Shown here: piece after piece, positions 5,160 through 20,296 of the stretch
How positions within the stretch are numbered: position 1 is the first letter of the stretch
Layout: the number at the start of each line of letters is the position of its first letter
From: a virus
Direction: 5' to 3' (one strand)
Length of the DNA stretch: 21,585 bases
IMG/VR virus record: IMGVR_UViG_3300033146_003231
Location: 1 to 21,585 of that record
Translations under genes and position numbers: made by a program
The notes under the pieces: generated by a model
Databases searched by the model: none
Told to the model about the DNA's origin: nothing
What the model saw: only the letters and a program-made list of their open reading frames with translations

Positions 5160-5179
5160 TATAAAAATAGGAGGAAAGA

Positions 5180-5518: not shown

Positions 5519-5527
5519 GAGGAAATA

Positions 5528-5647
5528 ATGACATTAGTAGAAGCGTTCGCACTTGGATTAGGAGTTTGGATATTTTTCAAATTCTTTGGAAGTGCAATAG
5601 TTATGGGAATATTTAGAATATTCATATTTTTTAAAGAAGGAAAGTAA
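5528..5647 (+). CDS. Membrane miniprotein, 39 aa
   Basis: MTLVEAFALGLGVWIFFKFF followed by a second hydrophobic stretch (AIVMGIFRIFIFF) and a KEGK tail. Preceded by TAGGAGGAAATA, and its stop overlaps the next start (TAATGA). Likely a real phage membrane peptide, function unknown. Confidence 0.65.
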   Translation: MTLVEAFALGLGVWIFFKFFGSAIVMGIFRIFIFFKEGK

Positions 5648-6183
5648 TGAGACCAGGTAACAATTTTTTCTTAAACCTATTTTCAAATAAATGGGGAGTA
5701 ATACTATTTTTTACGTTAATATCATTATTATTAATATTTATTCCATTTCATATAGGAACATTTGCTTTATTTGGTGGGGTATTTTACGGTATTCAATTAA
5801 TTATGCTTGCAGATACTCACCGTGAAGAAATGATTTATGCTCACTTTATGATTATGGTTAATACTATATTTCTCGTGGGTTTATTCGGTTGGAATGTTCT
5901 AACATTCAACGATAAAATTGATAGGTATGTAGATGTCAATACAACAGACTGTATCTATTTTTATGAAAATGAAGGAGACCAGAAATCTACATTGTATTTT
6001 GTTAAAAATGGAAGCAAAAAAGTTTCGTTAGATATAACAATAAGCGATGAAGAACTTAAGGAATTTTTAAGTAAAGAAAATCCTAAGCTTTATAAACATG
6101 AAACTAAAAGTGTGTTCTTTCAAACTTTAGATAATGAGTATACAGTCTCTAAAAAGGATATTAATGATACAAGATTACAGTAG
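5647..6183 (+). CDS. Membrane protein with a cytoplasmic or periplasmic tail, 178 aa
   Basis: Three hydrophobic segments (about residues 17-35, 38-55 and 65-85) are followed by a soluble domain of about 90 residues (IDRYVDVNTTDCIYFYENEG to KKDINDTRLQ) rich in beta-strand pattern. No family recognised. The start is coupled to the upstream miniprotein, and the 3' end overlaps the next gene. Confidence 0.7.
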   Translation: MRPGNNFFLNLFSNKWGVILFFTLISLLLIFIPFHIGTFALFGGVFYGIQLIMLADTHREEMIYAHFMIMVNTIFLVGLFGWNVLTFNDKIDRYVDVNTTDCIYFYENEGDQKSTLYFVKNGSKKVSLDITISDEELKEFLSKENPKLYKHETKSVFFQTLDNEYTVSKKDINDTRLQ

Positions 6184-6819: not shown

Positions 6820-6918
6820 GAGATATTAAATGTGTATGTGAGTTGCTCTTTCCGGACTCTTCTCATATACATTTAATGTAGTCCGGAATACTGCCCTCTT
6901 ATAATTAAATTTATAAGG
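6803..6918 (+). ncRNA. Pseudoknotted leader of a GIY-YIG endonuclease (copy 1)
   Basis: Outer pairing is TTATAAAT (6803-6810) with ATTTATAA (6909-6916), and TATAAGAG (6815-6822) with CTCTTATA (6896-6903). Inside, a 16-bp stem with a 2-nt bulge (6825-6842 with 6862-6877) has a loop element TTCCGGACT (6850-6858) that pairs with AGTCCGGAA (6880-6888) downstream, forming an H-type pseudoknot. A TATAAATA box (6804-6811) lies in the 5' outer arm; the AAGGA ribosome site (6915-6919) overlaps the end of the 3' outer arm. The antisense copy at 20306-20414 has the same plan with different stem sequences. Confidence 0.8.
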
Positions 6919-6924
6919 ATACGA

Positions 6925-7755
6925 ATGACTTATTTGTATATAAAAACTCACAATAAAACTGGTCTACAATATTTTGGAAAATTTACTGGAACAGAAAGAA
7001 GATTTAAAAAATATAAAGGTTCTGGATTATACTGGAAAAGGCATATAAAAAAACATGGATATGATGTAACTACCAATATATATTCTATATTCGATATTAA
7101 TAATTGTAATATCGAAGATGTAGCATTGGATTTTTCTATAGAAAATAATATAGTAGACTCAAAAGAATGGGCTAACTTGGTTTTAGAAAATGGATTAGAT
7201 GGTTCTCTAAATAATCTAGGTAAAAAATTATGTAATGATGGTATTTTACAAAAATATTTTAGGGAAGATGATATACCACATAATTTTAATATAGGCAGCA
7301 TTTACGAATATAAATGGTATAATGATGATATAAACGAATATTTTATTACTATAAAGAATAGTAAAAATCTTAAACTTGGGAGACTAAAGAAAAAAGGGGA
7401 GTATTATAATAATGGAAAAGAATTATTATTGATTATGAATAAAATAAATATTCCTAAAGGTTTTGTAAAAGGTGGAATTATAAGTAAAGTCTATAATAAT
7501 GGTATAATAGAAAGACGATTTAAAACAGATGATATAATACCAGAAAATTTTAATCGTGGTATGCTAAAATTAGGTAAATGGTATAATAATGGGGAGATGG
7601 AAAAAAGGTTTAGAATAAATGAACCGATAACAAAGGGTTTTGAATTAGGCCAGATTATTGTAACCTGCCCACATTGTTTAACTAAATGTAATAAAGGGAA
7701 TGCTAAAAGATGGCATTTTAATAACTGTAAAAAGGCAATTGATGTATATAACTGA
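6925..7755 (+). CDS. GIY-YIG homing endonuclease with YNNG-type repeats
   Basis: 276 aa. The N-terminal GIY-YIG domain (residues 1-95) shows YLYIKTHN, YFGKF, YKGSGLYWKRHIKKHG and NNIVDSKEWANLVLENGLDG, the style of T4 Seg-like enzymes. The middle has spaced repeats of the form KWYNNGEMEKRF followed by a GF.xG turn. The C-terminus has a CPHC...HFNNC zinc-finger-like end. The first 95 residues closely match the antisense gene at 20296, while the C-terminal DNA-binding parts differ, as expected for enzymes with different targets. It is preceded by a structured leader, and its last 14 nt overlap the start of the next gene. Confidence 0.85.
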   Translation: MTYLYIKTHNKTGLQYFGKFTGTERRFKKYKGSGLYWKRHIKKHGYDVTTNIYSIFDINNCNIEDVALDFSIENNIVDSKEWANLVLENGLDGSLNNLGKKLCNDGILQKYFREDDIPHNFNIGSIYEYKWYNDDINEYFITIKNSKNLKLGRLKKKGEYYNNGKELLLIMNKINIPKGFVKGGIISKVYNNGIIERRFKTDDIIPENFNRGMLKLGKWYNNGEMEKRFRINEPITKGFELGQIIVTCPHCLTKCNKGNAKRWHFNNCKKAIDVYN

Positions 7756-8206
7756 TAAATTTAGAACGATAAAAAGATTTTTTAGAAATTTAATATGGTA
7801 TTGGGAAATATTAAAGACGGATGAATGGTGGGACTATAGCTTTTTTCTAGAGTTACAAGCTCGTAAATTAGAGAATATGTCAATTAATTGGAAGCACAGC
7901 CATTATGTGGATTTTGAAGCAGAGCAAGTTACTATTGATAGAGCTTTATTTTTAACTAAAAAATTAAAAGAAGATAACTATCTTGAAAATGCTATGGGAT
8001 TCATGGACATAAAATATGGAGCACTTGAGCTTAATGAAGATGACTCAGATGCTACTTCTTTATTTCTAAGAGGCGGGAAAGAACCATCTCCAGAAGAAGA
8101 GGAAGATTGGTTAAAAGCTTTCGCAGAAGCTAATAAAAATAAAGAAGCCGATAAAAAAGAACTCTTTGAATTAATTGCTACCCACCTAGAGTTTTGGTGG
8201 GATTAA
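7742..8206 (+). CDS. Unknown phage protein, 154 aa
   Basis: The ATG at 7742 follows AAAAAGGCAATTG and lies within the end of the endonuclease gene; an ATG at 7700 would add 14 residues but has no ribosome site. A basic, aromatic N-terminus (KFRTIKRFFRNLIWYWEILK) leads to WWDYSFFLELQARKLENM and an acidic tail ending LEFWWD. The W-D-Y-S-x-x-L-x-x-K-L pattern recurs in many T4-like phage hypothetical proteins from memory. Function unknown. Confidence 0.7.
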   Translation: MYITDKFRTIKRFFRNLIWYWEILKTDEWWDYSFFLELQARKLENMSINWKHSHYVDFEAEQVTIDRALFLTKKLKEDNYLENAMGFMDIKYGALELNEDDSDATSLFLRGGKEPSPEEEEDWLKAFAEANKNKEADKKELFELIATHLEFWWD

Positions 8207-8207
8207 C

Positions 8208-8247
8208 CCCAAATTTAAGCTAGAACTAATGTTAAACATGGTATAAT
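8208..8247 (+). promoter_or_regulatory. TTTAA-phased promoter with leader hairpin
   Basis: TTTAAGCTAGAACTAATGTT leads into AAACATGG and TATAAT (8242-8247). The transcript would start with an AGAGTC-GAA-GACTCT hairpin (8263-8277), similar in place to the leader hairpins near 20650. It serves the two lipoprotein genes. Confidence 0.75.
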
Positions 8248-8295
8248 ATAGTATATAAAGAAAGAGTCGAAGACTCTAAACAAAGAAGGATTTAA

Positions 8296-8535
8296 ATGAA
8301 GAAAATATTATTAAGCTTAACAGCTTTAACAGCGGTACTATTACTTACTGGTTGTCAAGAGACAATAGCACAAAAACCAAATACTAGTAAAGTAAAAACA
8401 AAAGCTGTACAATATGGTATAAAAGTATATTGCGATAAAGAAACGAACGTAGAATATTTAATTCGTAAAGATTATGGAACTGGTGGAATAACTCCTAGAT
8501 ATAATTTAGATGGCACATTAAAAGGTTGTAAATAA
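8296..8535 (+). CDS. Lipoprotein, 79 aa
   Basis: Classical lipoprotein signal: MKK start, hydrophobic core and lipobox LLTGC with the modified cysteine at C20. The mature part is small and basic with two cysteines (C50, C78) that could pair. Exported and lipid-anchored in the host envelope. Small phage lipoproteins often block superinfection, as T5 Llp does, but no sequence match to such a protein is claimed. Coupled to the next gene by TAATG. Confidence 0.8.
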   Translation: MKKILLSLTALTAVLLLTGCQETIAQKPNTSKVKTKAVQYGIKVYCDKETNVEYLIRKDYGTGGITPRYNLDGTLKGCK

Positions 8536-8783
8536 TGAAAACATTACTAATTGGCTTAACAGCATTACTATTACTAAGCGGTTGTACAAATAAAAATGAT
8601 ATGGATAGAGCACTTGAAGCACAAGGTTTCACTAATATCCAAGAAACTGGATATAATTTTTTCAGTTGTTCTCAAGATGATTTTTATCACTCGGGATTTA
8701 AAGCAACAAATGCCCAAGGTAAAAGTGTAGAAGGAACTGTATGTTCTGGAATACTTTTCAAATCAGCAACAATTAGATTTTAA
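8535..8783 (+). CDS. Second lipoprotein, 82 aa
   Basis: Lipobox LLSGC with C17. The mature domain contains ALEAQGFTNIQETGYNFFSC, an aromatic DDFYHSGFKATNAQGKSVEG stretch and VCSG, with two cysteines likely to form a disulfide. This small domain is common among phage and prophage lipoproteins from memory, function unsettled. The first 17 residues resemble those of the upstream lipoprotein only as signal sequence; the mature parts differ. Confidence 0.8.
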   Translation: MKTLLIGLTALLLLSGCTNKNDMDRALEAQGFTNIQETGYNFFSCSQDDFYHSGFKATNAQGKSVEGTVCSGILFKSATIRF

Positions 8784-8791
8784 GGATTAAT

Positions 8792-8980
8792 ATGACTGGT
8801 GGAGAAATATTTTTAATATGTTTTGTGATTTTTATTGGAGCTATTTTAGTAGAGAATTATCAAACAGGTAAATTGACTAAAGAGATGGCTGATAAAGGTT
8901 ATGAGCAAGTTTTAGAAGATGGGTATGATAGCGAAGGTCATAAAATGAGTAAGAAAATTTGGAAAAAAGTGAAGGACTAA
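8792..8980 (+). CDS. Single-span membrane protein, 62 aa
   Basis: The N-terminal helix (FLICFVIFIGAILV) is followed by a charged tail of about 40 residues (KEMADKGYEQVLEDGYDSEG). Starts after AAGGATTAAT, 8 nt past the lipoprotein stop. Unknown function, probably part of the same envelope operon. Confidence 0.65.
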   Translation: MTGGEIFLICFVIFIGAILVENYQTGKLTKEMADKGYEQVLEDGYDSEGHKMSKKIWKKVKD

Positions 8981-8981
8981 A

Positions 8982-9236
8982 ATGGCAGGACTTAATCAAA
9001 TGATTGGAAAATACATTAATGTTGAAGTTATTAAATCTGGAGTAATTACAGATTGGAATGATGAATCTTATAATGTTGTAGAGGGCGAAATTTATGAACT
9101 TGATGATAAAGGTTGTATCGAAGACCCCGATTTAGAAGAAGGTGATATGGACACATTTACAATTTCAGGAAATAAACTTGATGGTGTAACTATGTCAGAG
9201 TATGTTTTTAATGAATATTTTTTAATTAAGGACTAA
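8982..9236 (+). CDS. Acidic protein of unknown function, 84 aa
   Basis: Begins MAGLNQMIGKYINVEVIKSG and is strongly acidic in the centre (DPDLEEGDMD). No membrane segment and no recognised family. Two bases separate it from the upstream stop (AAGGACTAAAATG), and one base separates it from the next gene. Confidence 0.6.
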   Translation: MAGLNQMIGKYINVEVIKSGVITDWNDESYNVVEGEIYELDDKGCIEDPDLEEGDMDTFTISGNKLDGVTMSEYVFNEYFLIKD

Positions 9237-9237
9237 T

Positions 9238-9435
9238 ATGGAAGATATAGAGAATATTGATTATAATTTGAGTGATATGGTTATGGAACATTATCCAAAT
9301 GATAAAGGTCTTATTAATGGGTATGAAGTTCAGGAATGGATGGATATTCTTAAAGTTGATATTTCAAATAACCCCGAACGTTACTTAGTAAATTGGTTAA
9401 AAGATTTAGAAGATTGGAAGGTTAAAAATGGATAA
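9238..9435 (+). CDS. Small acidic protein, 65 aa
   Basis: MEDIENIDYNLSDMVMEHYP to WLKDLEDWKVKNG; helical, tryptophan-containing and acidic, in the size range of many phage host-takeover proteins. AAGGACTAAT precedes the ATG, and the 3' end overlaps the next gene by 8 nt. Function unknown. Confidence 0.6.
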   Translation: MEDIENIDYNLSDMVMEHYPNDKGLINGYEVQEWMDILKVDISNNPERYLVNWLKDLEDWKVKNG

Positions 9436-9637
9436 AAAATTATTCCGAAATTACACTCACGATTTACCTGCAATGATGAGAGATATTTACATAGCTTTAT
9501 GTAAAGGTTTTGATGAAATGCAAGACGATTTCGATGGTGTTGATAAAGGTAAAATGATTGGATTCATTATGAAGGAAACTAGAGGTTCAGTTAACCCTGT
9601 AGTTCTAAATGAAATCTTAAAGGATTTTGAGAAATGA
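9428..9637 (+). CDS. Small helical protein, 69 aa
   Basis: MDKKLFRNYTHDLPAMMRDI then KGFDEMQDDFDGVDKGKMIG. Overlaps both neighbours (start inside the previous gene, ATGA with the next). Not recognised. Confidence 0.6.
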   Translation: MDKKLFRNYTHDLPAMMRDIYIALCKGFDEMQDDFDGVDKGKMIGFIMKETRGSVNPVVLNEILKDFEK

Positions 9638-9858
9638 TTTATCAAAGTGGTCGAATTACCAAAAATAAATCTTGGGAATTACAAATAGCTAATATGGCTG
9701 ATACTATATTTAATTTAAGTATCAGTTGGACTCGCAAATGTGACCATGCAGGATTTAATTTTAACTTAGAAATACATAAATTTATGTTTGATTTTAATCT
9801 TCGTGATAACCGTCACTGGGATTATGATAACGATTGTTATGAAAAATATGATTCTTAA
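9634..9858 (+). CDS. Small protein of unknown function, 74 aa
   Basis: MIYQSGRITKNKSWELQIAN and a tryptophan/aspartate-rich end (DNRHWDYDNDCYEKYDS). Coupled by ATGA to the gene before and overlapping the one after. The W-E-L-Q-I...F-N-L-S-I-S-W strand pattern suggests a small beta fold; no family assigned. Confidence 0.6.
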   Translation: MIYQSGRITKNKSWELQIANMADTIFNLSISWTRKCDHAGFNFNLEIHKFMFDFNLRDNRHWDYDNDCYEKYDS

Positions 9859-10030
9859 AAAAGAAGATTATCCAGGTATATCACAGGACATTAATTTAGA
9901 TGAAACTAAAGATATAAAATTTTATCATAAGAAGATGAAAGTAGTTGCAGGAAATAATACAAAAAATTCAGAGACTGCTGCAAAAATTGCGAAAGTAATT
10001 GAAGAGAATTACTCAGAATATTTAATATAG
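9839..10030 (+). CDS. Small protein, 63 aa
   Basis: The start at 9839 (MKNMILKKEDYPGISQDINL) is preferred over 9788, which lies deep in the previous gene and gives an artificial hydrophobic lead. The C-terminus ends EENYSEYLI, the recurring EYLI/EYFI tail of this cluster. The ribosome site is weak, so coupled translation is likely. Confidence 0.5.
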   Translation: MKNMILKKEDYPGISQDINLDETKDIKFYHKKMKVVAGNNTKNSETAAKIAKVIEENYSEYLI

Positions 10031-10040
10031 AAGGAAGAGA

Positions 10041-10286
10041 ATGATAAATGTATTACTAGTATTAGGTTACTTAATAGTTGCTTACGTTGTTGCCAAATTA
10101 GGCTTAAAAGCTCAAATAGCAATGTTAGCAAATAATCAAAAACGTTCATTTGATAAAGATGAGGCTAAAGGAAACTGGGCAGCAATAGGATTAGCATGGG
10201 GTTTTACGGTTCCATTCGGATTAATGTTTCTTGTTGTAGGAATTATGATTTATATTATTATGGAAACTGGTAAGAAAATTTTATAA
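10041..10286 (+). CDS. Two-span membrane protein, 81 aa
   Basis: Hydrophobic spans at residues 3-18 (NVLLVLGYLIVAYVVA) and 47-74 (WAAIGLAWGFTVPFGLMFLV and on), with a polar loop carrying NNQKRSFDKDE. Preceded by AAGGAAGAG. Inner-membrane location likely; role unknown. Confidence 0.65.
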   Translation: MINVLLVLGYLIVAYVVAKLGLKAQIAMLANNQKRSFDKDEAKGNWAAIGLAWGFTVPFGLMFLVVGIMIYIIMETGKKIL

Positions 10287-10295
10287 GGAATTAAA

Positions 10296-10589
10296 ATGGG
10301 TTTATATATTGAAGTTGAAGATAAAGCGGCTTGGCTGATGATTAATGGGACAAATATTGTTCCAAATAGTTTTACAGCAGAGAGTATTAAAGATGAAGAT
10401 TTTTTAGTTTGTCTAATTGATAATGGTCCATTTCTAGCGGCTGGAGTTGCGTACAATGAGCAAGAATTAGGTTATATTCTTAATGAAGTAACAGATGAAA
10501 AAGATGCAAGACCTAAATTCTTTTTTGAAGTACCTAAAAAATTGTTAAAAGATGTTTGTCCTAGTTGGAACGATTATGTTAGCGAATAA
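10296..10589 (+). CDS. Unknown protein, 97 aa
   Basis: MGLYIEVEDKAAWLMINGTN with alternating hydrophobic residues and a C-terminal FFFEVPKKLLKDVCPSWNDY. Soluble. Starts after AAGGAATTAAA. Contains the start of the next miniprotein in another frame. No family recognised. Confidence 0.65.
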   Translation: MGLYIEVEDKAAWLMINGTNIVPNSFTAESIKDEDFLVCLIDNGPFLAAGVAYNEQELGYILNEVTDEKDARPKFFFEVPKKLLKDVCPSWNDYVSE

Positions 10590-10665
10590 TAAAAATAACA
10601 GACTGGCAAAAGTTGTAGCGATAGTATCAGTATTACTAATACTCGGCTGGTTTATTTTACTGTAA
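10576..10665 (+). CDS. Single-span membrane peptide, 29 aa
   Basis: MLANNKNNRLAKVVAIVSVL continuing LILGWFILL. A basic N-terminus plus one helix suits N-in insertion in the inner membrane. It overlaps the previous gene by 14 nt and lacks its own ribosome site. Confidence 0.45.
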   Translation: MLANNKNNRLAKVVAIVSVLLILGWFILL

Positions 10666-10673
10666 GGAATAAG

Positions 10674-10883
10674 ATGCAATATATAGTATTAGAAAATGAA
10701 AACTTAGATAATTATTATGGTAATAAACTAGGATTAATTGCTCAAGTTAATAATAAAATTGAAGCAGGTTGGATTCCTCAAGGTGGAATTGCAATGAAGC
10801 AAGAAAAAAATTGGGTCTCTTCTGCAAATACTGGGCAACATGATGTTAATGTAACCTATATGCAAGCAATGATAAAGGAATAA
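10674..10883 (+). CDS. DUF1737-like small protein, 69 aa
   Basis: Short fold with the pattern MQYIVLENENLDNYYGNKLG, INxKIEAGWIPQGGIA-like centre and a closing VTYMQAMIKE. This matches the DUF1737 family of small proteins found in phages and bacteria (the G-W-x-P-Q-G-G and Y-x-Q-A-M features). Its biochemical role is unknown. AAGGAATAAG precedes the ATG. Confidence 0.65.
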   Translation: MQYIVLENENLDNYYGNKLGLIAQVNNKIEAGWIPQGGIAMKQEKNWVSSANTGQHDVNVTYMQAMIKE

Positions 10884-10884
10884 T

Positions 10885-11397
10885 ATGTTTAAAATATTTG
10901 ATAAATTAAAATCACCTAAAAGCAGATTAAAAGAAGCTTTTGTTGCGAGGGTAAAAAATGGAAAATCGTTTAATACTTTTTATACTCATGGTATTCTTGA
11001 TAGCCGTATTCAAGTATTAAGAACAGATTTTTTAGCTGCACGACATGGTGTAAAATCTGCTTGTTTTACTGTGGCTGATAAAAATTATCCCAATAATAAA
11101 ATTAGAACAGATAATACTCAAGGTAATATTGGACACGAAACTTTAATCTTTCCTAATGGTGAGTTTTATAATTATAATCATAGCAAGTATGGTGACGACC
11201 ACTGGACTAGCCCAAGTTGTATTAATTATGATATGCTAGAATATCTTGTAAAGAATTCTGATATTCCCTTAGATAAAAGATATAAGCTTTTGGAATCTTC
11301 TAAATCACAAGGTGAAGAGTATTCACTTATTTACACTAAGAATCACAAAAAAATTAAAAAACAAATGGAAATTAATTTTCCAGAATATTTAATATAA
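10885..11397 (+). CDS. Unknown protein, 170 aa
   Basis: Basic N-terminus (MFKIFDKLKSPKSRLKEAFV), a histidine- and aspartate-rich centre (GHETLIFPNGEFYNYNHSKY then DDHWTSP) and a C-terminal NFPEYLI tail. The clustered H, D, N and C residues might bind metal, but no known motif fits. Starts one base after the previous stop with AAAGGAATA ahead. Confidence 0.65.
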   Translation: MFKIFDKLKSPKSRLKEAFVARVKNGKSFNTFYTHGILDSRIQVLRTDFLAARHGVKSACFTVADKNYPNNKIRTDNTQGNIGHETLIFPNGEFYNYNHSKYGDDHWTSPSCINYDMLEYLVKNSDIPLDKRYKLLESSKSQGEEYSLIYTKNHKKIKKQMEINFPEYLI

Positions 11398-11405
11398 GGA
11401 TTAAA

Positions 11406-11645
11406 ATGAGAGATGCAATAAATCAAGAACTTAAAATTGGTGATACTGTTTTATTCAAATTCGCCACTGGTACTGAATTATTAAAAGGTGTTATAGATGA
11501 ATTTAAAACTGTTAAAGAGGGTATTAAAGTTAATATAACATCTTTTGCCCCTTCAGAAAAAAGAAAAACTCAACACTGGCAAAGACCAGAAGCAATTGTA
11601 AAAATAGATTTAATCTATGAAGCAATGCCAGAATTAAATATATAA
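11406..11645 (+). CDS. Unknown small beta protein, 79 aa
   Basis: MRDAINQELKIGDTVLFKFA resembles the start of small SH3-like barrel proteins (a K-I-G-D-x-V-x-F segment), followed by GVIDEF and KVNITSF strands. The barrel fold is a guess from strand pattern. AAGGATTAAA precedes the ATG. Confidence 0.6.
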   Translation: MRDAINQELKIGDTVLFKFATGTELLKGVIDEFKTVKEGIKVNITSFAPSEKRKTQHWQRPEAIVKIDLIYEAMPELNI

Positions 11646-11653
11646 GGAAACAA

Positions 11654-12022
11654 ATGTCAGATATGGAAACACACTTTGGTAAAGCAAAAAGGATAGGATT
11701 TAAGAATTCTAAATTAACATTCGGTAAAAAACTTGGATTACTTAAAGATTTAGGTTATGAATTTGATTACGATATTGTAGATAATTATTTTGAATCAGAA
11801 AAATTAATTTATGTCCCGAGTTCAGGAAATTTTTATGAACTGTTTGAGCATGAGAGAATTGATTCAGATGGATTTTGTAAAATGACAGAAAATACTGATG
11901 GCTCACTAACATTTGGAACTAGTTTCTATAATGGCGGAGTAGGATTTGATGAAGTCATGATTGATATGTTTGAAGAAATTGAAAAACCTAAATCAAGAAA
12001 AGAGAGGAAAAAGAGTGGATAA
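11654..12022 (+). CDS. Unknown protein, 122 aa
   Basis: MSDMETHFGKAKRIGFKNSK, aromatic centre (ESEKLIYVPSSGNFYELFEH), acidic helix (DEVMIDMFEEIEKP) and a very basic tail (KSRKERKKSG). No family recognised. Overlaps the next gene by 8 nt. Confidence 0.6.
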   Translation: MSDMETHFGKAKRIGFKNSKLTFGKKLGLLKDLGYEFDYDIVDNYFESEKLIYVPSSGNFYELFEHERIDSDGFCKMTENTDGSLTFGTSFYNGGVGFDEVMIDMFEEIEKPKSRKERKKSG

Positions 12023-12401
12023 ACAAATAGAAGTAAAATGGACTGGAAGCTACCCTAACTTATGTTCTGGTGTTTGGGAAATTACGATTGACGGTATGCC
12101 AATTAATGATAATTCTAAGATGCAGAATACTTATGACTCTATGCTGAAACGCAATATGGGTACAGAGGGTAGTTATGAATCTTGGCACTTTGAAAACTGG
12201 AGTGAAGTATTTGAAAGTTACGATGATGGATTATATTTTGATGATTGGGTAAAGTCAACGCAAGCTGTTGAATTACGTTTAATGATTGATGATAACTTAA
12301 TACAGAAACAAACTAAAATGTCAGACTCTGATATGAAGAATTTATTCTCTGAACTTCAGAATAATGACTGGAGAGCATCAAGTTGTGGAGGGTGTATCTA
12401 A
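12015..12401 (+). CDS. Conserved-looking unknown protein, 128 aa
   Basis: The GTG start at 12015 is chosen because AGAGAGGAAA lies just before it; an ATG at 11961 would add 18 basic residues that are a shadow of the upstream gene. The N-terminus (IEVKWTGSYPNLCSGVWEIT) recalls small bacterial proteins of the form VKYxGxYPNLCSG from memory. Two cysteines close the protein (SSCGGC), suggesting a disulfide or metal site. Function unknown. Confidence 0.65.
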   Translation: MDKQIEVKWTGSYPNLCSGVWEITIDGMPINDNSKMQNTYDSMLKRNMGTEGSYESWHFENWSEVFESYDDGLYFDDWVKSTQAVELRLMIDDNLIQKQTKMSDSDMKNLFSELQNNDWRASSCGGCI

Positions 12402-12409
12402 TATAAATA
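12402..12409 (+). promoter_or_regulatory. TATAAATA late-type promoter
   Basis: TATAAATAACT directly follows the upstream stop and lies 20 nt before the ATG at 12430, with AAGGAATTAAA between. Confidence 0.6.
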
Positions 12410-12429
12410 ACTAAAACTAAGGAATTAAA

Positions 12430-12741
12430 ATGTCAATTAGAAATTTATTTGAAGCTAAAGGCGACTACAAAGTATTAAACGGAACTTATACAGAAGCTGT
12501 TCAACAAATTACAAAATATGCAAATGATATGGGATATATGCTAGATTCTAGTGAAGACCCAGAAGATGCCGGTGCTCAAATGTTCGATGTAGTTGGGTCA
12601 GGTCCACGTAAACCTAAAGATGGAGTAACTAATAAATTTAGTTTTGAGCTTTATAAAGGTGAAAAGAAAAATAAGAAAATGCTTCATGCACAAATTACAG
12701 GTGTAGGAACTAAGTACGAACTCAACATTTACATAAATTAG
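12430..12741 (+). CDS. Phage protein of unknown function, 103 aa
   Basis: MSIRNLFEAKGDYKVLNGTY, a helix AVQQITKYANDMGYML, then SGPRKPKDGVTNKFSFELYK and a YELNIYIN end. The G-x-R-K-P-x-x-G-x-T-N-K-F segment followed by a Y-E-L-N-x-Y-I end recurs in T4-like phage hypotheticals as I remember them. Preceded by its own late-type promoter, so it may be a late, possibly virion or packaging-linked product. This is inference. Confidence 0.65.
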   Translation: MSIRNLFEAKGDYKVLNGTYTEAVQQITKYANDMGYMLDSSEDPEDAGAQMFDVVGSGPRKPKDGVTNKFSFELYKGEKKNKKMLHAQITGVGTKYELNIYIN

Positions 12742-12750
12742 CAAATTTAG

Positions 12751-12789
12751 AGTGAGTTTAAGCTCACTTTAATATTAACACGTTATAAT
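12751..12789 (+). promoter_or_regulatory. Combined terminator hairpin and promoter
   Basis: AGTGAG-TTTAAG-CTCACT followed by TT can end upstream transcripts, while the same TTTAAG and the next TTTAA tract (11 bp on) lead into AACACG and TATAAT (12784-12789). One stretch thus seems to serve both jobs. Confidence 0.6.
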
Positions 12790-12815
12790 ATATAAACCAA
12801 ACAGAAGGAGCCAAA

Positions 12816-13103
12816 ATGGCGAAAGATAAAACAGGACAAAAATCACTTAGACTAGAATCGAGTGTTTCAGCAATTGGAATTAGCCGTGTGCTATTAGCAG
12901 AAAATTATACTCGTGCAAAAAATGCAGTTCTTAAAGGTTCAGTAAATGCACCAAAAGAAATTCGTAAAGCCCTTTATGAATACATTTTTTCAGGTGACCC
13001 AGAGGCAGTTTCTCCACTCGAAGAAATCACTGGAGAATTCCTTAAGAAAAATCAATCACTTGATAACAAACTAGAAGCTCTCGTAGCTCGTGCAAAGATT
13101 TAA
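12816..13103 (+). CDS. Basic helical protein of unknown function, 95 aa
   Basis: MAKDKTGQKSLRLESSVSAI then ENYTRAKNAVLKGSVNAPKE and a helical end (QSLDNKLEALVARAKI). Mostly alpha-helical and basic at the N-terminus, so nucleic-acid or RNA-polymerase binding is conceivable. It stands first after a promoter with an AGAAGGAGCC ribosome site, upstream of nucleotide-metabolism genes. Codon use here is slightly less A/T-rich than its neighbours, as for a well expressed gene. Confidence 0.65.
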   Translation: MAKDKTGQKSLRLESSVSAIGISRVLLAENYTRAKNAVLKGSVNAPKEIRKALYEYIFSGDPEAVSPLEEITGEFLKKNQSLDNKLEALVARAKI

Positions 13104-13140
13104 ATAAACCACAAAACAAAACAGAACAGAAGGATAAAGA

Positions 13141-13491
13141 ATGAAAGAGAATGAAATTTGGGATTTAGTAGAAGAAGCTGCGGAGAGAAGTCACTGTAAA
13201 AAAAGAACAGTTGGCTGTGTACTAGTTGATACAAATAAAGATTTTGTATCTATGGGTTGGAATTACAATCCTATTGATGGTGATTGTGAAGACAAAAATA
13301 ACAAAACACTAGAGCACGTTCAACATGCTGAAATTACAGCTATACAACATATTCCAAAAGATTTTACTGGAGAATTAATTGCTTACGTAAATCATGGTTG
13401 TTGTAAAAACTGTTTCAGTGAACTTTCAAGAATAGTTCAATACATAATTATCAAACCCCAAAAATATGAAAATCTACACGTAGCACATTAA
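13141..13491 (+). CDS. dCMP/cytidine deaminase family protein
   Basis: 116 aa. Zinc deaminase signature: H62-A63-E64 (HAEITAIQH), and C88-K-N-C91 in HGCCKNCFSELSR. The N-terminal strand RTVGCVLVD and MGWNYNPIDGDCE match deoxycytidylate deaminases, which make dUMP from dCMP for phage dTTP supply. The usual proline before the first zinc cysteine is replaced by C87. The protein is shorter than T4 dCMP deaminase (193 aa). Lies between a small helical gene and a dNMP kinase, consistent with nucleotide metabolism. Confidence 0.82.
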   Translation: MKENEIWDLVEEAAERSHCKKRTVGCVLVDTNKDFVSMGWNYNPIDGDCEDKNNKTLEHVQHAEITAIQHIPKDFTGELIAYVNHGCCKNCFSELSRIVQYIIIKPQKYENLHVAH

Positions 13492-13502
13492 AAAGGAATA
13501 TA

Positions 13503-14084
13503 ATGAAAAAAACAATTGTACTTATAAATGGAAAGAAAAGAAGTGGTAAAGATTTTAGTGCTTCTATCTTACATGAAAAATTAGCAGTCAAAAATACTGT
13601 TACTACAATGTCGGTCGCTGGACCAATGAAAAATATAATTTCTACAATTTTTGGAATTAGTTTAGAGCAACTAGACAAATTTAAAAATGAGCCTGAAAAT
13701 TATATGATTAAAATTGATGGTTTTCCAGAATACGAAGGTACAACATTTAGACAAACTTTAACTAGATTTGGTACTGATGCAATGTACCCAGAATTCGGTG
13801 AAAATGTATGGGCAGATTTATTTGTGTCTAAAATTAAAGAATCTAAATCTGATATTATTTTAGTACCCGATTTTAGATATATTAGTGAGCATGTTTCTGC
13901 CTTAGAAACTGGTTTTAACGTTGTAACATTATTCATTAATAATGATGAGTGCGATAGTGTTGATACACATAGAAGTGAAACAGAACTTGATGATTTTCGT
14001 TTTGATTACAGCATAGATAATACTGGTTATAGCGAAAAGCTATATGACTATTTAGATACATTTATTGCAGAGAAATTAACATAG
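13503..14084 (+). CDS. Deoxynucleoside monophosphate kinase (T4 gp1-like)
   Basis: 193 aa. A P-loop GKKRSGKD (residues 10-17) opens the protein after strand TIVLIN. Further family features are FRQTLTRFGTDAMYPEFGEN with VWADLFV, the DFRYISE segment, and THRSETELDD near the C-terminus. Such kinases phosphorylate dNMPs to dNDPs in phage DNA synthesis. It starts after AAAGGAATATA, 11 nt beyond the deaminase gene, and stands just ahead of the polymerase region. Confidence 0.85.
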   Translation: MKKTIVLINGKKRSGKDFSASILHEKLAVKNTVTTMSVAGPMKNIISTIFGISLEQLDKFKNEPENYMIKIDGFPEYEGTTFRQTLTRFGTDAMYPEFGENVWADLFVSKIKESKSDIILVPDFRYISEHVSALETGFNVVTLFINNDECDSVDTHRSETELDDFRFDYSIDNTGYSEKLYDYLDTFIAEKLT

Positions 14085-14191
14085 GTTTAAGTTAAGGTTA
14101 AAGTTAAGGTTAAGTTAAGGTTAAGTTAAGTTAAGGTTAAGTTAAGGTTAAGTTAAGGTTAAGTTAAGGTTAAGTTAAGGTTAAGTTAAGG
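14085..14191 (+). repeat. Tandem array of an 11-bp unit upstream of a promoter
   Basis: About nine copies of GTTAAGTTAAG, with small length variants (12 bp at the left, one 16-bp copy in the middle), run from the kinase stop to the next -10 box. The unit holds two TTAAG steps. It is the same tract found singly or doubly in the other promoters, expanded. No spacers are present, so it is not a CRISPR array. Confidence 0.92.
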
Positions 14192-14206
14192 TTAACACGT
14201 TATAAT
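14191..14206 (+). promoter_or_regulatory. Promoter at the end of the 11-bp array
   Basis: GTTAACACGT-TATAAT, followed by ATAGAAAATAAGGAGGATAT, a very strong ribosome site, and ATG at 14227. It drives the HNH endonuclease and polymerase N-half. Confidence 0.75.
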
Positions 14207-14226
14207 ATAGAAAATAAGGAGGATAT

Positions 14227-14268
14227 ATGAATAAAATAAAAAAACACACTTATTATCACTTGATGTAA
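14227..14268 (+). CDS. Short leader ORF in frame with the HNH endonuclease
   Basis: MNKIKKHTYYHLM-stop follows the best ribosome site in the window (AAGGAGGATAT). The stop (14266-14268) is in the same frame as the endonuclease, whose TTG start lies 6 nt later. It is either a stub of the gene that once stood here, or the true N-terminus interrupted by a stop. Confidence 0.45.
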   Translation: MNKIKKHTYYHLM

Positions 14269-14274
14269 AAAAGC

Positions 14275-14964
14275 TTGATAAAGTTAGATAAATATATAAC
14301 TTTTTGTATTGATAATAATACAAATAATAGTGTAAAAAGTGATTTACATCATATATTACCTAAATCTCAATGGTTATTCCCACAGTTTGCAGACCTAAAA
14401 AATAATTGTTGGAATGGAACTTACTTAACACCAATTAATCATATTAAAGCACATAAATTATTAGCTGAGGCTATTAATCATTTATCAATTGATAAAGCTT
14501 TCACATGTTTATATGATTTTTCTTATGATGTATCTAATATGAATGAAGATGAAATAAATGATATAATTATAAGAGGTAGAAAACATTCTGAAGAAACTAA
14601 GCAAAAAATTAGTAAAAGTAATACTGGAAAATCCAGATTAAAAGGCGAATCTTCACCAAATTTTGGAAATAAACATAGTGATGAAACAAAAAAGAAAATG
14701 TCTAATAATCATGCAGATGTTTCAGGAGATAAAAATCCAATGTATGGGTGTAATAGAAGTGGTGAAGCCGGGCCAAACTTTGGAAATAAGCATAGCGATG
14801 AAGCAAAAAAGAAAATGTCTAATAATCGTAAAAATAAAGGCACAGGAAAAAGAGCAGGATATATTAAAAAAGCAAGCGTATGTATAATTTGCGGCTTAAT
14901 ATCTAGTAGTAATACTATAAGTAAATATCATAATGCTAAATGTAAAGGAAATAATAATGAATAA
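14275..14964 (+). CDS. HNH homing endonuclease with NUMOD3 repeats
   Basis: 229 aa from a TTG start. HNH core: LHHILPKSQWLFPQFADLKN then GTYLTPINHIKAHKLLA. From about residue 100 there are several NUMOD3-type DNA-binding repeats of the form GNKHSDETKKKMSNN, then a zinc-finger-like CIICG...YHNAKC end. Free-standing phage endonucleases have this layout. With the stop at 14266 the start is uncertain; reinitiation after the leader ORF is likely. The last 8 nt overlap the polymerase start, so endonuclease and polymerase are translationally linked. Confidence 0.85.
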   Translation: MIKLDKYITFCIDNNTNNSVKSDLHHILPKSQWLFPQFADLKNNCWNGTYLTPINHIKAHKLLAEAINHLSIDKAFTCLYDFSYDVSNMNEDEINDIIIRGRKHSEETKQKISKSNTGKSRLKGESSPNFGNKHSDETKKKMSNNHADVSGDKNPMYGCNRSGEAGPNFGNKHSDEAKKKMSNNRKNKGTGKRAGYIKKASVCIICGLISSSNTISKYHNAKCKGNNNE

Positions 14965-16870
14965 TTTTTCGGATTTTATGTACGAGAATGTATTTGAAAA
15001 ACCAGACTATTCAGGTAAAAAAGTAAAAAAACAAGTTTGGGCTAGATTATATAACCCCGCTACTAAACAAAGTGACTTTAAAAATGTCACTAGCTACAGC
15101 ATACCACACATTTATCAATATAGTAAAAATGGTCAGTTTGTCTCACATATAGATACTAGCCTAAAATTAACTCCTAAGAAATTCAACGAGATGGATGCTT
15201 TCGATAAATTCGTAAAAGAAATTAAAGTTGAAACTGGAGAAATGGTTCAGATTGAAGTTGATGGTGAAGAATTTGAATTTGAAGAAACTGTATTTGAAGA
15301 TGATGTATATGGATATACAAATAAACCTCACACATTTATTCACAGATATTTTACAGATGCTTTAAAATCAGACCACTTACATCGTACTTGGTTTTTCGAT
15401 ATTGAAACTCGCTCTGGTGTTGTAATACCAAATTCATTCCCGCATTCATATTTAGCCCTAGAAGAAATTTCTATGATACAGATATATGATAACTTTCTTA
15501 AAAGTTATATTGTAATTGGACTAAAAGATTTCACAGGTAAATTTGATGACCCTAAGAATACTAGATTTATTAAAGTTGATACTGAAGCAAAACTGTTAAC
15601 TTTATTTTTGCAACTATTAGAGAAGATGAAACCTAGTATTATTTCTGGTTGGAATAGTATGATGTTTGATATTCCTTATATTACAAATAGAGTCGCACGT
15701 GTATTAGATGGATTTAATGGACCTGTTGATGAGCTTAATAAAAAGAAATCTTATATTGAAATGGATAATGTTAAAAGATTAAGCCCTGTTCGTTCAGTGT
15801 ATGGAAGTTCAGCAAAAACTAAAGATGGAATGGAAGGGGTCACATCGCACTGGCAAGGAATTGCTTTAGTGGATTATCGTGAGCTTACAATTAAATATGG
15901 ATACTTAGGTTTACCAAGTTACTCTTTAGCTAACGTTGCAAGACACTTTGATTTATCACAAAAAATTGACCACTCTCAATATTCTAAATTTGATGATACA
16001 TATACGGGTGAGAATTATTTCATGCCTCTTGAACCAATGGTTGGAGATGAAGTATATGATATTCAGCTAGCATATAAAAATGGTACAGCGACTAAAACAG
16101 AAATGCAACAAGTTGTATATAATAGATTTGTTGATTACTCATTAAGAGATGTCGAGATACTTGTGCAACTTGATGAGATGACAAAATATTTAGCATCACA
16201 ACAAGGTATTGCATATACTTGTTCAGCATCATTTGATGATTGTTGGGGTACAGCTAAACACTGGAGTTCTTATATGTTTACTGAAGCACTTCAAAAACAA
16301 GAAGTCCTTCCGCTAACACAGAGATTCCCAGATAAAGATGTTGTATTCTTGGCTGGTTGGGTTAGAAATATGCCAGGAAAATATGAGTATATTTCTTCAT
16401 TTGACTTTACATCACTGTACCCATCGTTAATTATGGCTTTCAATATTGGAGCTGACGTATATGTGAATGATGAAGAAATGCACCAGGATTTAAAAGACCT
16501 CCGGGCTAAATTCTTTACTTATCACACTATGGAAAATGTTAATAGAGAATTAGTCTTACACGATGGAACTGAAGCAGCTCTTGGTAAAATGGTTCTTAAG
16601 CACAACGGAGAAATCTCAGATTTAGAAGAAGAAACTATTTTCTATAAATCTTTAATCGATAATAAAGATGAGATTTCTGCAGTGTTACAGAAGCACGATG
16701 TTTGTGCTACACCAAATGGATTTTTCTACAGAAAAAATAAAGAATCTCAAAGTTCTATATTAATGAGAAGAAACTTCTTAAATCGTGTAAAAGCGAAACG
16801 TGCTGGTCAAGCTGATGGTGCAGAACTTGAGAAACTTAAAAAAGAAATGCAACATAGAGGCTTATTATAA
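14957..16870 (+). CDS. 43: Family B DNA polymerase, N-terminal half (T4 gp43-like)
   Basis: 637 aa from ATG 14957, which follows AAAGGAAATAATA; an upstream ATG at 14933 adds eight residues without support. Exonuclease motifs are intact: Exo I FFDIETR (D148, E150), Exo II GWNSMMFDIPY (N233, D238), Exo III YSLRDVEI (D398). Polymerase motif A SFDFTSLYPSLI has the metal ligand D483. The frame then ends at LKKEMQHRGLL, in the fingers region ahead of motif B. Motifs B and C are in the gene at 17879. So this chain has the 3'-5' exonuclease and half of the palm, and must join the second chain to polymerise. An antisense endonuclease gene starts right at the break. Confidence 0.92.
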   Translation: MNNFSDFMYENVFEKPDYSGKKVKKQVWARLYNPATKQSDFKNVTSYSIPHIYQYSKNGQFVSHIDTSLKLTPKKFNEMDAFDKFVKEIKVETGEMVQIEVDGEEFEFEETVFEDDVYGYTNKPHTFIHRYFTDALKSDHLHRTWFFDIETRSGVVIPNSFPHSYLALEEISMIQIYDNFLKSYIVIGLKDFTGKFDDPKNTRFIKVDTEAKLLTLFLQLLEKMKPSIISGWNSMMFDIPYITNRVARVLDGFNGPVDELNKKKSYIEMDNVKRLSPVRSVYGSSAKTKDGMEGVTSHWQGIALVDYRELTIKYGYLGLPSYSLANVARHFDLSQKIDHSQYSKFDDTYTGENYFMPLEPMVGDEVYDIQLAYKNGTATKTEMQQVVYNRFVDYSLRDVEILVQLDEMTKYLASQQGIAYTCSASFDDCWGTAKHWSSYMFTEALQKQEVLPLTQRFPDKDVVFLAGWVRNMPGKYEYISSFDFTSLYPSLIMAFNIGADVYVNDEEMHQDLKDLRAKFFTYHTMENVNRELVLHDGTEAALGKMVLKHNGEISDLEEETIFYKSLIDNKDEISAVLQKHDVCATPNGFFYRKNKESQSSILMRRNFLNRVKAKRAGQADGAELEKLKKEMQHRGLL

Positions 16871-17788
16871 ATGATATATTTTATCTAACTCCAATAATAT
16901 ATCATTTTTTACTGATATATTAAACCATTCTGTTCTCCCATCTCCTTCTAATAATGGATTATTATCTAAATTATATTTACGATGATAATAATCCTCATAC
17001 ATATATACATGTGCAAAAAAATATTTTTTTACTATTTTTATATCAGGTATAAATTTTAAGAAAGATTTTATTCGCTCATCTGGTTTCATAGAAACACCTA
17101 TTTTAATCTTATTAAGTTCTTTAGATTCCATTATATATAAATACCCATATCTATAATATTTAGATGGGTCATAATATAAAGAATTTGATAACCCAGTACA
17201 AATTTGAGACCCATTTTTTACCCCATATTTATTCAAACATGATAACTCTTTATTTATTTTAGTCTCTTCTGAACTATTAGCACATTTTCTTCCGCAAAAT
17301 TTTGTGTATTCGCTAGCATGCGAATAAGTGTAAGTTGTTGCTTTTATTTTACAATTTGGGCACATTGGTTTTTTCACTATATTATTTGTAATACAATAAC
17401 CAGCCTCTCTTATACTATTACACCAGTATAACTCTTCTGGAATTATATATTCAATATTTGCTGATGATTTTAATCGTCCATTATTTGTGTAAATATCTTT
17501 CACATTATTTTTGTTAAGCATTTTGGCATCTTTATCTTTAGGCCTTACAATTGACCGTGAACAAGTAGTTGAACAGCATGCACTATAACCTGAGCTCATA
17601 TTCTTAAAATTTAATGGGTTGTTACAATAACATTTTGGTTCTATATCTATATTATTTTTATAACAATATACTGCCTCAATATTAGTCTTATGCCAGGTTT
17701 CTGGGTCTGGGATATATAATAATGATTTAGTTCTACTTATCCTATTGCCAGAAATTATATTTGCGTAATTATTTTTATTTAGTATCAT
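16865..17788 (-). CDS. Homing endonuclease-like protein with T5orf172-type GIY-YIG domain
   Basis: 307 aa. The N-terminal 190 residues have paired cysteine clusters (CYCNNP...CCSTTC; CPNC...FCGRKC) that look like zinc-binding DNA-recognition modules. The C-terminal part (from about residue 213: YRYGYLYIMESKEL, KIKIGVSMKPDERI, YYHRKYN, GDGRTEWFNIS) fits the T5orf172/MUG113 branch of GIY-YIG nucleases. It lies antisense between the two polymerase halves. Its stop shares 6 bases with the end of the N-half gene, which fits an insertion that truncated gene 43. No ribosome site; a TATAAATA box lies 4 nt before the ATG. Confidence 0.8.
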   Translation of the reverse strand: MILNKNNYANIISGNRISRTKSLLYIPDPETWHKTNIEAVYCYKNNIDIEPKCYCNNPLNFKNMSSGYSACCSTTCSRSIVRPKDKDAKMLNKNNVKDIYTNNGRLKSSANIEYIIPEELYWCNSIREAGYCITNNIVKKPMCPNCKIKATTYTYSHASEYTKFCGRKCANSSEETKINKELSCLNKYGVKNGSQICTGLSNSLYYDPSKYYRYGYLYIMESKELNKIKIGVSMKPDERIKSFLKFIPDIKIVKKYFFAHVYMYEDYYHRKYNLDNNPLLEGDGRTEWFNISVKNDILLELDKIYHL

Positions 17789-17792
17789 ATAT

Positions 17793-17800
17793 TATTTATA
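17793..17800 (-). promoter_or_regulatory. TATAAATA four bases before the antisense endonuclease
   Basis: TATAAATA-ATAT-ATG, the same spacing as at 4009-4021. It predicts a leaderless late transcript. Confidence 0.5.
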
Positions 17801-17821
17801 AAATCTCTTTAATCAATAAGA

Positions 17822-17855
17822 GTTTAATAAAAGTTTAAGTATATAATGTTATAAT
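17822..17855 (+). promoter_or_regulatory. TTTAA-phased promoter for the polymerase C-half
   Basis: TTTAATAAAAG and TTTAAGTATATAATG (11 bp apart) lead to TATAAT (17850-17855), then TTAAAGGAACACT and ATG 17879. The second half of gene 43 therefore has its own promoter and ribosome site. Confidence 0.75.
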
Positions 17856-17878
17856 AGTATATGAATTAAAGGAACACT

Positions 17879-19016
17879 ATGAATTTAGAAAATTATTCTG
17901 ATGAAGAATTACTAAAAAAATACAGTGAATTACAGCAATCTAAAGACTTGAATGAAAATATTTCTCAAGTTCTTAAGATTTTGCTTAATTCTTATTATCG
18001 GCAGTCTCAGCATGGGTCATATTACGTACAGTAATGGTAACATAACAGCTTCTAGTATCACTACAGCAGGCCGTATGAGCAATAAGATAGCTTCTATGTA
18101 TGCTAGTAATAAAGTTGCAGGTATGCTTGGTGAGCCCACAGGGACAGATTTAAGATATGTTCCACAAGTAGATACTGATAGTTACTATCTAAATCTAGGT
18201 GATGTTGTTAAAACTAAGATGAGTAATTTCGATAAAGATAAAAAAGTGAAAGCTGTTCTTAAGATTTCTGATACTATTATACTTGAGAGTAATAAAAAAG
18301 CGATGGTAGATATTGCAGAAACATTAAACTTAAGAGATACTAAAGCCTTAAACTTAGAGAATGAAATTATTGCTGATGGATTTGTATCATTAGCAGCTAA
18401 AAGATATTTCGGTCGTAAAGTTGTAGAAGATGGAACTATATTAGCTAAACCTAAAATGAAGTCAACGGGTATATCTCTAGTTTCTAAGAAGACTCCTAAG
18501 TTTTTAAGAGATGCACTTGCACCTGTACTAGAAATTATACTTGATGGTACGAATTCAGATTTGAATAAGTATATCAAAGGGGTCCGAGCAGAATTTGGTG
18601 AGCTAAGTCCTACTGAATTTGCACGTTCAGCAAATGTTAATAATCTTTCTTATAGTCCTGTTGGATTTAAGTACAAGAGACAAAAGGAAGATGGTAAATT
18701 CTTAACAGCCCCAATGGGCTCGCACGCTTCTTTAGAGTTCAATAGATATATTAAAGAAAATAATATGACTGGAAAATACAACCCTATTGAGGTTGGTGAA
18801 GCAGTAAGTTATGTTTATATTAATGAACCTAATGAGAAAAAATTGCATGGCTCTTTAGCTTGGAATGACCCGAACTTTACAGATGATGTAGACTTAAAAG
18901 ATTTTGTATCTTATGCTGAACATTTTCATAAAGATTTTGAGAAGAAAGTTGAGATTGTTGTTAAGCCTATTGGATGGAATATTTATAATAAGACTGAAGA
19001 AATGGAAGTCTGGTAA
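17879..19016 (+). CDS. 43: Family B DNA polymerase, C-terminal half, with a +1 frameshift in motif B
   Basis: The first frame (17879-18034) reads MNLENYSDEELLKKYSELQQ to KILLNSYY and then stops as RQSQHGSYYVQ. Skipping one base (C at 17999) continues as GSLSMGHITYSNG, completing motif B KILLNSYYG. The next frame carries motif C QVDTDSYYLNL (D at 18171 and 18177) and the thumb KPKMKSTGISLVSKKTPKFL, similar to T4 gp43. The shifted product would be about 378 aa, so both halves together total about 1015 aa against 898 for T4 gp43. The skipped base is not in a homopolymer; TAT TAT CGG places a rare arginine codon in the A site. Programmed +1 shift, true mutation or sequence error are all open. Confidence 0.85.
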
Positions 19017-19302: not shown

Positions 19303-19579
19303 ATGAAATTTAAAGATTTATTAGAAAATAATAAAAAAAGCACTTGATGCTATTATTGATATATTAATTGATGGAGCAGAAGATAATTTAGATACAGATT
19401 ATTATGACCCAGATGCAGACCAGGAATATTTTATTAATGATATGATTGATAAAGTTATGGAATGGTCTTCTGATAGCTTAGAAGATGCACTAGATATGGA
19501 ACTAGACGAATTAATGGATTTAGTTTCAGATAACCGTAAGAAGATTGTGAAAACTCTTCTTAAAAAATTAAAAAGATAA
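19303..19579 (+). pseudogene. Frameshifted paralogue of the acidic protein
   Basis: Frame 1 reads MKFKDLLENNKKST-stop. After a run of seven A (19333-19339) the other frame continues ALDAIIDILIDGAEDNLDTD to KIVKTLLKKLKR and stops at 19577-19579. Treating the run as six A, or skipping one base, gives about 91 aa closely analogous to the gene before. There is no ATG near the start of the second frame. A homopolymer sequencing slip or transcriptional slippage are both likely explanations. The stop touches the stop of the antisense endonuclease with no gap. Confidence 0.65.
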
Positions 19580-20296
19580 TTAATTCATATGAACACATAC
19601 TTTATTAAGTATTCCTAATTTTCTAGCGGCAGCATAAGCTCCACTAGAACCCCTCCCAAATTTTGTTCTTGTTGTATATTTTAACGCTTCAATTTTAATA
19701 TTATTTTCACACCATGATATTATTATAGCGGGCATATGCGAGCATACCTCATTCATTATTTTCCTTTTGGAAGCAGCTTGATATGCCATCAAATCATGTT
19801 TACGAAATTCATCTCTAGTTAAATATTTTGATGCTGACATTTTAATATTCGCATTTGTCCAAGTAAATTTTTTAATCATATGACTACATATATTTTTTAA
19901 AATACCTAATTTTAAAGCTGTTTGATAAGCCCCGCCACACTTATTTTTAAATTCGCTTCTATGTTTATATTTTAACGCTTCAATTTTAATATTATTTTCA
20001 TCCCACTTTATTATTCCACCATCTAAACCATTTTCTTCAGTTAAATTTGCCCAATCATTAGAGTCTACTATATTATTTCTTTTAGAAAAATCTAGAGCTA
20101 CTTCTTCTAATAATGGGTCATCTTCATAAAAAATACCGTATAATTCAGTAGTTACATTATAGTTATGCTTCTTAATATGCCTTTTCCAGTATAAACCGGA
20201 ACCCTTGTAGTTATGTATATTTTCATTTATTGTTTTACCGAAATATTTTAATTGTGTTATATTGTGAGTTTTAATATATAGATATACTAGTCGCAT
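19580..20296 (-). CDS. GIY-YIG homing endonuclease with A-Y-x-A-A/C-x-H-M repeats
   Basis: 238 aa. The GIY-YIG domain (residues 1-97: VYLYIKTHN, YFGKTIN, YKGSGLYWKRHIKKHNYNVT, NNIVDSNDWANLTEENGLDG) closely matches the gene at 6925. The C-terminal half consists of three repeats of about 47 residues, each with IKIEALKYK/T-x-R-x-F, an A-Y-x-x-A-x-K-x-x-I stretch and a C-x-H-M end. Such repeats are DNA-binding modules in other phage endonucleases as I recall. An AAGGATA ribosome site and a pseudoknotted leader precede it. Its stop abuts the stop of the convergent frameshifted gene. Confidence 0.85.
   Translation of the reverse strand: MRLVYLYIKTHNITQLKYFGKTINENIHNYKGSGLYWKRHIKKHNYNVTTELYGIFYEDDPLLEEVALDFSKRNNIVDSNDWANLTEENGLDGGIIKWDENNIKIEALKYKHRSEFKNKCGGAYQTALKLGILKNICSHMIKKFTWTNANIKMSASKYLTRDEFRKHDLMAYQAASKRKIMNEVCSHMPAIIISWCENNIKIEALKYTTRTKFGRGSSGAYAAARKLGILNKVCVHMN

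Follow-up and report, generated by a model that had tools for sequence, protein, structure and literature searches.

One extra base in motif B of a split phage DNA polymerase, probably read through by programmed +1 frameshifting

The window considered here is the whole of virus record IMGVR_UViG_3300033146_003231 (21,585 nt), a stretch of DNA from a T4-type phage. Its family B DNA polymerase is split into two pieces, 43A and 43B, by an inverted homing endonuclease gene, and the second piece is interrupted by a single extra base within motif B (KxxxNSxYG), the core of the fingers helix by which family B polymerases bind the incoming nucleotide. We conclude that programmed +1 frameshifting at this site probably gives rise to the second chain, gp43B. 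The features concerned, in coordinates of the window, are:

14933-16870, plus strand: gp43A, which is the N-terminal half of the family B DNA polymerase; it probably starts at ATG 14957, and its last residues before the stop codon are ..EMQHRGLL.
16865-17788, minus strand: inverted gene for a homing endonuclease of the T5orf172/GIY-YIG type, which shares 6 nt with the 3' end of 43A.
17868-17881, plus strand: Shine-Dalgarno sequence AAAGGA (17868-17873) and ATG (17879-17881) of gp43B, read from the sequence.
17879-17998, plus strand: gp43B in frame 0 (codons 1-40), comprising the second helix of the fingers and motif B as far as KILLNSYY.
17927-17991, plus strand: predicted imperfect mRNA hairpin of 27 bp, a candidate stimulator, with its foot 7 nt before the extra base.
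17993-18002, plus strand: shift site within motif B, reading TAT TAT C GGC and including one extra base, T17998 or C17999.
18000-19016, plus strand: gp43B in the +1 frame (Pfam DNA_pol_B; 338 codons, 46% identical to the relative L005), with the motif B glycine, DTDS, palm, and thumb to the stop codon.
18032-18034, plus strand: TAA stop codon of frame 0, at which the unshifted product terminates after 51 aa.

The open reading frame (ORF) at 17879-18034 (plus strand, 51 aa) encodes MNLENYSDEELLKKYSELQQSKDLNENISQVLKILLNSYY followed by RQSQ..., and its polymerase-like part ends with KILLNSYY. The polymerase resumes in the +1 frame at the glycine codon at 18000 and continues for 338 codons to 19013, with the stop codon at 19014-19016. 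The DNA of motif B (17975-18002) reads AAG ATT TTG CTT AAT TCT TAT TAT C GGC, which places the break at KILLNSYY|GSLS. A preliminary description of this DNA had located the break between KILLNSYY and G, and the position is confirmed by the ORFs, by an alignment in which the joined 43B is collinear with RB69 gp43 across the break (K33 at K560, G41 at G568), and by a codon-usage score that moves from the frame of 17879 to the frame of 18000 between approximately 17970 and 18018. Pfam, RB69 and the alignments recover the order of a T4 gp43-type family B polymerase (exonuclease, SLYPS, KxxxNSxYG, DTDS), with motif B present only once the frames are joined. The extra base is outside any homopolymer, as had been described, though T17998 (TAT TA[T]C GGC) is as valid a call as C17999: removal of either base leaves Tyr-Tyr-Gly. 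CGG, the frame-0 codon at the shift site, is used only 3 times in about 5,000 codons, in keeping with the slow CGG codon that the preliminary description had proposed to favour a shift.

A relative, L005 (IMG/VR 3300003177_000008, a 52-kb contig), has the same arrangement: 43A, an inverted homologous endonuclease gene at the end of 43A, and a 43B with its own strong Shine-Dalgarno sequence and an ATG at 8268 that is preceded by AAAAAGGAG. The two endonucleases occupy the same site and are 46% identical, as are the C-terminal polymerase parts of 43B, the agreement that shared descent leads one to expect. Motif B of L005 likewise contains one extra base (AAG GTT TTA CTT T AAC AGC TCA TAC GGG). 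That a phage so diverged should have a +1 break within the same nine residues makes the break in motif B more than chance. The break follows 40 codons in the window and 36 codons in L005, where it lies 12 nt earlier in the alignment and where frame 0 terminates at the break itself (CTT TAA C). The frame of motif B in L005 has a stop codon four codons upstream and no ATG, GTG or TTG before 8464, which is already past NSSYGVSS...TSGR; to reach this conserved segment, the ribosome would therefore have to shift within a stretch of about four codons (AAG GTT TTA CTT TAA). Upstream of the break, 21 of 40 residues are identical between the window and L005, and 10 of these 21 use different synonymous codons; downstream, different codons are used for 77 of the 154 shared residues. 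About half of the shared residues thus differ in codon upstream as well as downstream of the break, which shows coding constraint on both frames. The preliminary description had also proposed that related phages be compared for the same extra base: L005 does have a +1 in motif B, but at another base, separated from that of the window by 12 nt in the alignment. In a second relative, L004 (a 183-kb contig; polymerase about 51% identical to that of the window), the polymerase is uninterrupted and in frame, and neither such an endonuclease nor a frame break was found in its polymerase gene.

The split itself is evident from the gene content. The first chain, gp43A, comprises the exonuclease domain, the palm up to ..DFTSLYPSL.. 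and the first fingers helix; it scores over the cut-off for Pfam DNA_pol_B_exo1 and DNA_pol_B and is about 51-60% identical to the polymerases of L004 and L005. The inverted gene that follows has a T5orf172 domain with 23.3 and 32.8 bits, over the curated Pfam cut-off of 20 bits. The split point is near the 43A/43B split of Aeromonas phages 44RR and 25. The preliminary description had missed the split and the restart of 43B at 17879; with both taken into account, the likely reason for the shift therefore changes.

The hairpin upstream of the break exceeds what the coding sequence would lead one to expect. The minimum free energy of 17927-17998 is -18.7 kcal/mol, compared to a mean of -5.0 for 500 synonymous recodings of the same peptide (z = -5.4, none of 500 as low), and 200 dinucleotide shuffles give z = -4.9 (0 of 200). 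Its z-score is the lowest among 243 windows scanned along 43A and 43B, the lowest non-overlapping one having -3.3, and no comparable hairpin was found at the homologous place in the unshifted L004 (z = 0.0). Bypass in T4 gene 60 likewise involves a 5' structure. In L005, the shift site has an AAGG 5 nt upstream that is a possible Shine-Dalgarno stimulator; none is evident in the window. In the phage of L004, which has 23 tRNA genes and a tmRNA, the only Arg tRNAs are UCU and ACG, both expected to be poor readers of CGG. In the phage of L005, Leu(UAG) and Leu(UAA) are the sole Leu tRNAs found in 52 kb. No tRNA genes were found in the 21.6-kb window. We note that tRNA arrays adjoin the polymerase in related phages (L049, genome G002, 6916-12249; L040, genome G001, 12180-18129), with 23 tRNAs and a tmRNA (tags VNNTDYTPAALVA and VNNTDYTPAAQVA). 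A nascent-peptide signal of the gp60 kind in LLKKYSELQQ was rejected, as the unshifted L004 reads KYQEIKQ there. Transcriptional slippage was rejected as well, neither shift site having a homopolymer.

The proposed sequence of events is as follows. Insertion of the homing endonuclease gene between the two fingers-domain helices would have caused the polymerase to be made as two chains, the second of which, gp43B, would have gained its own ribosome-binding site and start codon. About forty codons into gp43B the ribosome would skip one base, at UAU UAU C GGC in the window and at CUU U AAC in L005, which would yield the intact KxxxNSxYG motif and the remainder of the enzyme. For the window, refolding of the hairpin behind the ribosome together with the rare CGG may promote the shift: with UAU in the P site the foot of the hairpin would be in the exit path, and refolding could push the ribosome forward. 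For L005, the slippery CUU before a poor UAAC stop may serve the same end. Homing endonucleases favour conserved sites that are unable to mutate. The extra base may represent an endonuclease-resistant allele, retained as it would spoil the endonuclease target within a motif whose protein sequence cannot change. The idea is drawn by analogy from T4 gene 60 (endonuclease and bypass) and Aeromonas phage 25 (endonuclease and intron past motif B). The full proposal, a single-base resistant allele in an unalterable catalytic motif that stays functional by programmed +1 frameshifting, in two lineages with different signals (a 5' hairpin and a prfB-like site), is put forward tentatively, and we rate its chances at somewhat below even.

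Several alternatives have to be weighed. That the extra base of the window is an error of sequencing or assembly, or that the contig derives from a defective genome, with the polymerase in frame in the living phage, would suit a single-base break in a metagenomic contig, all the more as a second frame break of the same sign follows about 1.3 kb downstream, at an A7 run near 19330-19340. The break in motif B, however, is located outside a homopolymer and coincides exactly with a hairpin beyond coding expectation. Moreover, the diverged L005 combines a +1 in motif B with the same rare layout, and its contig has no other frame break in the 44 ORFs common to the phages of L004 and L005, a comparison that detects only breaks flanked by long sequence on both sides. 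We therefore regard an error as unlikely. Still less probable is a real break that is decoded elsewhere, either by a +1 ORF with its own start (ATG 17952), so that two or three chains assemble, or by a later shift, for example at GGG U (18015) to give NSYYRQSQHGHITYS. The +1 frame is indeed open from 17952 (ORF 17952-19016), frame 0 is open to 18034, and good +1 re-pairing is possible at GGG U. Yet a start at 17952 would result in a protein that lacks the motif B helix (MKIFLKFLRFCLILII), the shift at GGG would put arginine in place of the near-invariant glycine of the motif, and L005 has no start codon and a frame overlap of only about four codons. The remaining alternative is that both indels are scars of endonuclease cutting, that is, real inactivating mutations of the target that are rescued by other genomes or transient; both are indeed found in one short stretch beside the homing endonuclease gene, at different bases. 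But in both the window and L005 conservation of the downstream frame extends past DTDS as far as the stop codon, consensus assemblies with a dead replicative polymerase are unlikely, and the hairpin would be left unexplained, so that we give scars marginally the poorest prospect of the three.

Programmed +1 frameshifting, already suggested in the preliminary description, gains from the second phage with a +1 in motif B and from the strong upstream hairpin, but a number of observations weigh against it. UAU is not slippery, and re-pairing of the Tyr-tRNA from UAU to AUC is poor. At the homologous place in L005 the upstream hairpin is weak (z = -2.0, p = 0.04), and no downstream stimulator structure above expectation was found in the window or in L005. 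Only two genomes show the +1 in motif B, both of them metagenomic contigs, and their shift sites differ in position and sequence. As the sites are 12 nt apart and of different sequence, the site has either moved or arisen twice, and descent from one shift site is not established. The step to endonuclease resistance, in addition, is a hypothesis, with motif B as the putative target of the endonuclease.

Other ways of accounting for the break were rejected. A search for group I introns with Rfam, whose positive control was found in L056, gave no match in the motif B region of the window or of L005, and neither an intein nor trans-splicing is visible at the break. Viral and genome contigs were scanned with proteins, alignments and DNA patterns for further relatives with a +1 in motif B; these scans returned only L004, L005, L006, Campylobacter phages and distant relatives; the remaining DNA-pattern matches were judged to be chance. 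Motif B and the region following it are uninterrupted in nearly all of a spread sample (60 of 2,402 phage records). Two Campylobacter phages, F379 and CJLB-12, were discarded as motif B cases, as their breaks fall at DTDS. At this site F379 (L014, 2724-4103) has a natural split intein whose halves flank a presumed endonuclease gene, and CJLB-12 has a rearranged remnant. L005 also harbors an intein in the exonuclease motif of its polymerase (4737-6001; ..SGFN|CIPLDSNIWTD .. YTHN|CKTFDFPY).

Some of the closest parallels are found in phages whose polymerase or topoisomerase is disrupted next to a homing endonuclease gene. In T4, gene 39 is split by a homing endonuclease gene, and the 50-nt bypass between codons 46 and 47 of gene 60 may have protected against the nuclease (PMC5009743). 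T4 gene 60/mobA and the window share an essential replication gene split by an endonuclease, a downstream piece with its own start and a recoding-type break about 40 codons in, and this layout is present in both the window and L005. In gene 60, however, 50 nt of a topoisomerase gene are bypassed, whereas the window involves one base, a probable +1 shift and a DNA polymerase; its break is inside a catalytic motif, and its endonuclease is inverted and of another family. With one base and no 50-nt bypass between matching codons, the window and L005 are not members of the gene 60 system, but would work like it if our interpretation holds.

In Aeromonas phage 25, the junction of 43A and 43B is occupied by a GIY-YIG endonuclease gene, and within 43B a group I intron directly follows ..NSLYGAL. 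This intron has no endonuclease of its own and is predicted to use a free-standing one (PMC2993671); it is present in 8 of the 8 phages found with a phage 25-type endonuclease at the junction. Like the window, Aeromonas phages 25, Aes120 and phiAS4 and coliphage G2285 have a homing endonuclease gene that separates the two helices of the fingers, as well as extra DNA in or beside motif B, and the Aeromonas phages of this type share with the window a new start for the second polymerase piece. The insertion in the phage 25 type is a group I intron without an endonuclease gene after YGAL; in the window and L005 it is one base before G or N, respectively. The homing endonuclease genes of the window and of the phage 25 type are not alike by sequence. 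Without an Rfam group I match, the window and L005 are not members of the series of motif B introns, although they too would work like them under the proposed interpretation. In three other Aeromonas phages, whose junction holds an HNH endonuclease unrelated to that of phage 25, there was no intron match. In the two of these that were inspected, Aes007 (L067) and 50AhydR13PP (L068), motif B is in frame and followed by GCLG instead of GALG, a possible candidate for a resistant allele of the substitution type.

As to the shift sites, the +1 frameshift site of prfB (release factor 2) is CUU UGA C. The CTT TAA C of L005 is of the same form, with UAA for UGA and AAGG 5 nt upstream, albeit in a polymerase gene; the combination of CUU, stop codon and C is absent from the window (TAT CGG C). 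At the +1 frameshift site of yeast Ty1, CUU AGG C, tRNA-Leu(UAG) decodes CUU ahead of a slow codon. L005 is similar in its Leu(UAG) tRNA and CUU, and differs in its bacterial ribosome, being a phage, and in the stop codon in the A site.

If the interpretation is correct, a replicative DNA polymerase relies on recoding inside its active-site motif, with replication hostage to decoding. The bypass of T4 gene 60 would then not be a lone oddity: intron, bypass and +1 shift would be several ways of preserving a gene with a disrupted DNA target beside a homing endonuclease, and the window and L005 would be a minimal counterpart of the gene 60 bypass and the motif B introns.

The second frame break of the window (19303-19579, plus strand) consists of MKFKDLLENNKK followed by ALDAIIDILIDG.. 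in the +1 frame at the A7 run (AATAATAAAAAAAGC); it could be due to slippage, a +1 shift or a homopolymer error. An apparent frame overlap at 6134-6183 proved to be an ordinary overlapping start (ATG 6166).

Six endonuclease-like genes make up about one fifth of the window (1817-2689, 4021-4908, 6925-7755, 14275-14964, 16865-17788 and 19580-20296). Pfam supports a homing endonuclease only for 14275-14964 (NUMOD3) and 16865-17788 (T5orf172); the other four were recognized by eye. One of the latter, 1817-2689 (minus strand), resembles an HNH homing endonuclease and is part of an insert of about 1.2 kb that interrupts a flagellin gene (837-1529 and approximately 2729-2860, minus strand) after ..RINRAADD; the insert has no Rfam intron match. 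The nearest flagellins found are those of Sulfurimonas and other Campylobacterota (38-53% identity), and this similarity therefore hints at a host among the Campylobacterota. Another endonuclease-like ORF is inserted ahead of a small BRCT-like gene (4908-5159, MNIIFTGKI.., by eye), whose first codons are apparently duplicated at 3964 (MRTIRNIVFTGKFG..; region 3964-5159). Finally, small acidic proteins encoded at 19045, 19303 and 12430 of the window and at 9486 and 9826 of L005 have a common N-terminus like MKFKDIFEK, MSIRNLFEA or MSFRKLFTEG, reminiscent of the capsid-targeting leader peptides of T4 internal proteins.
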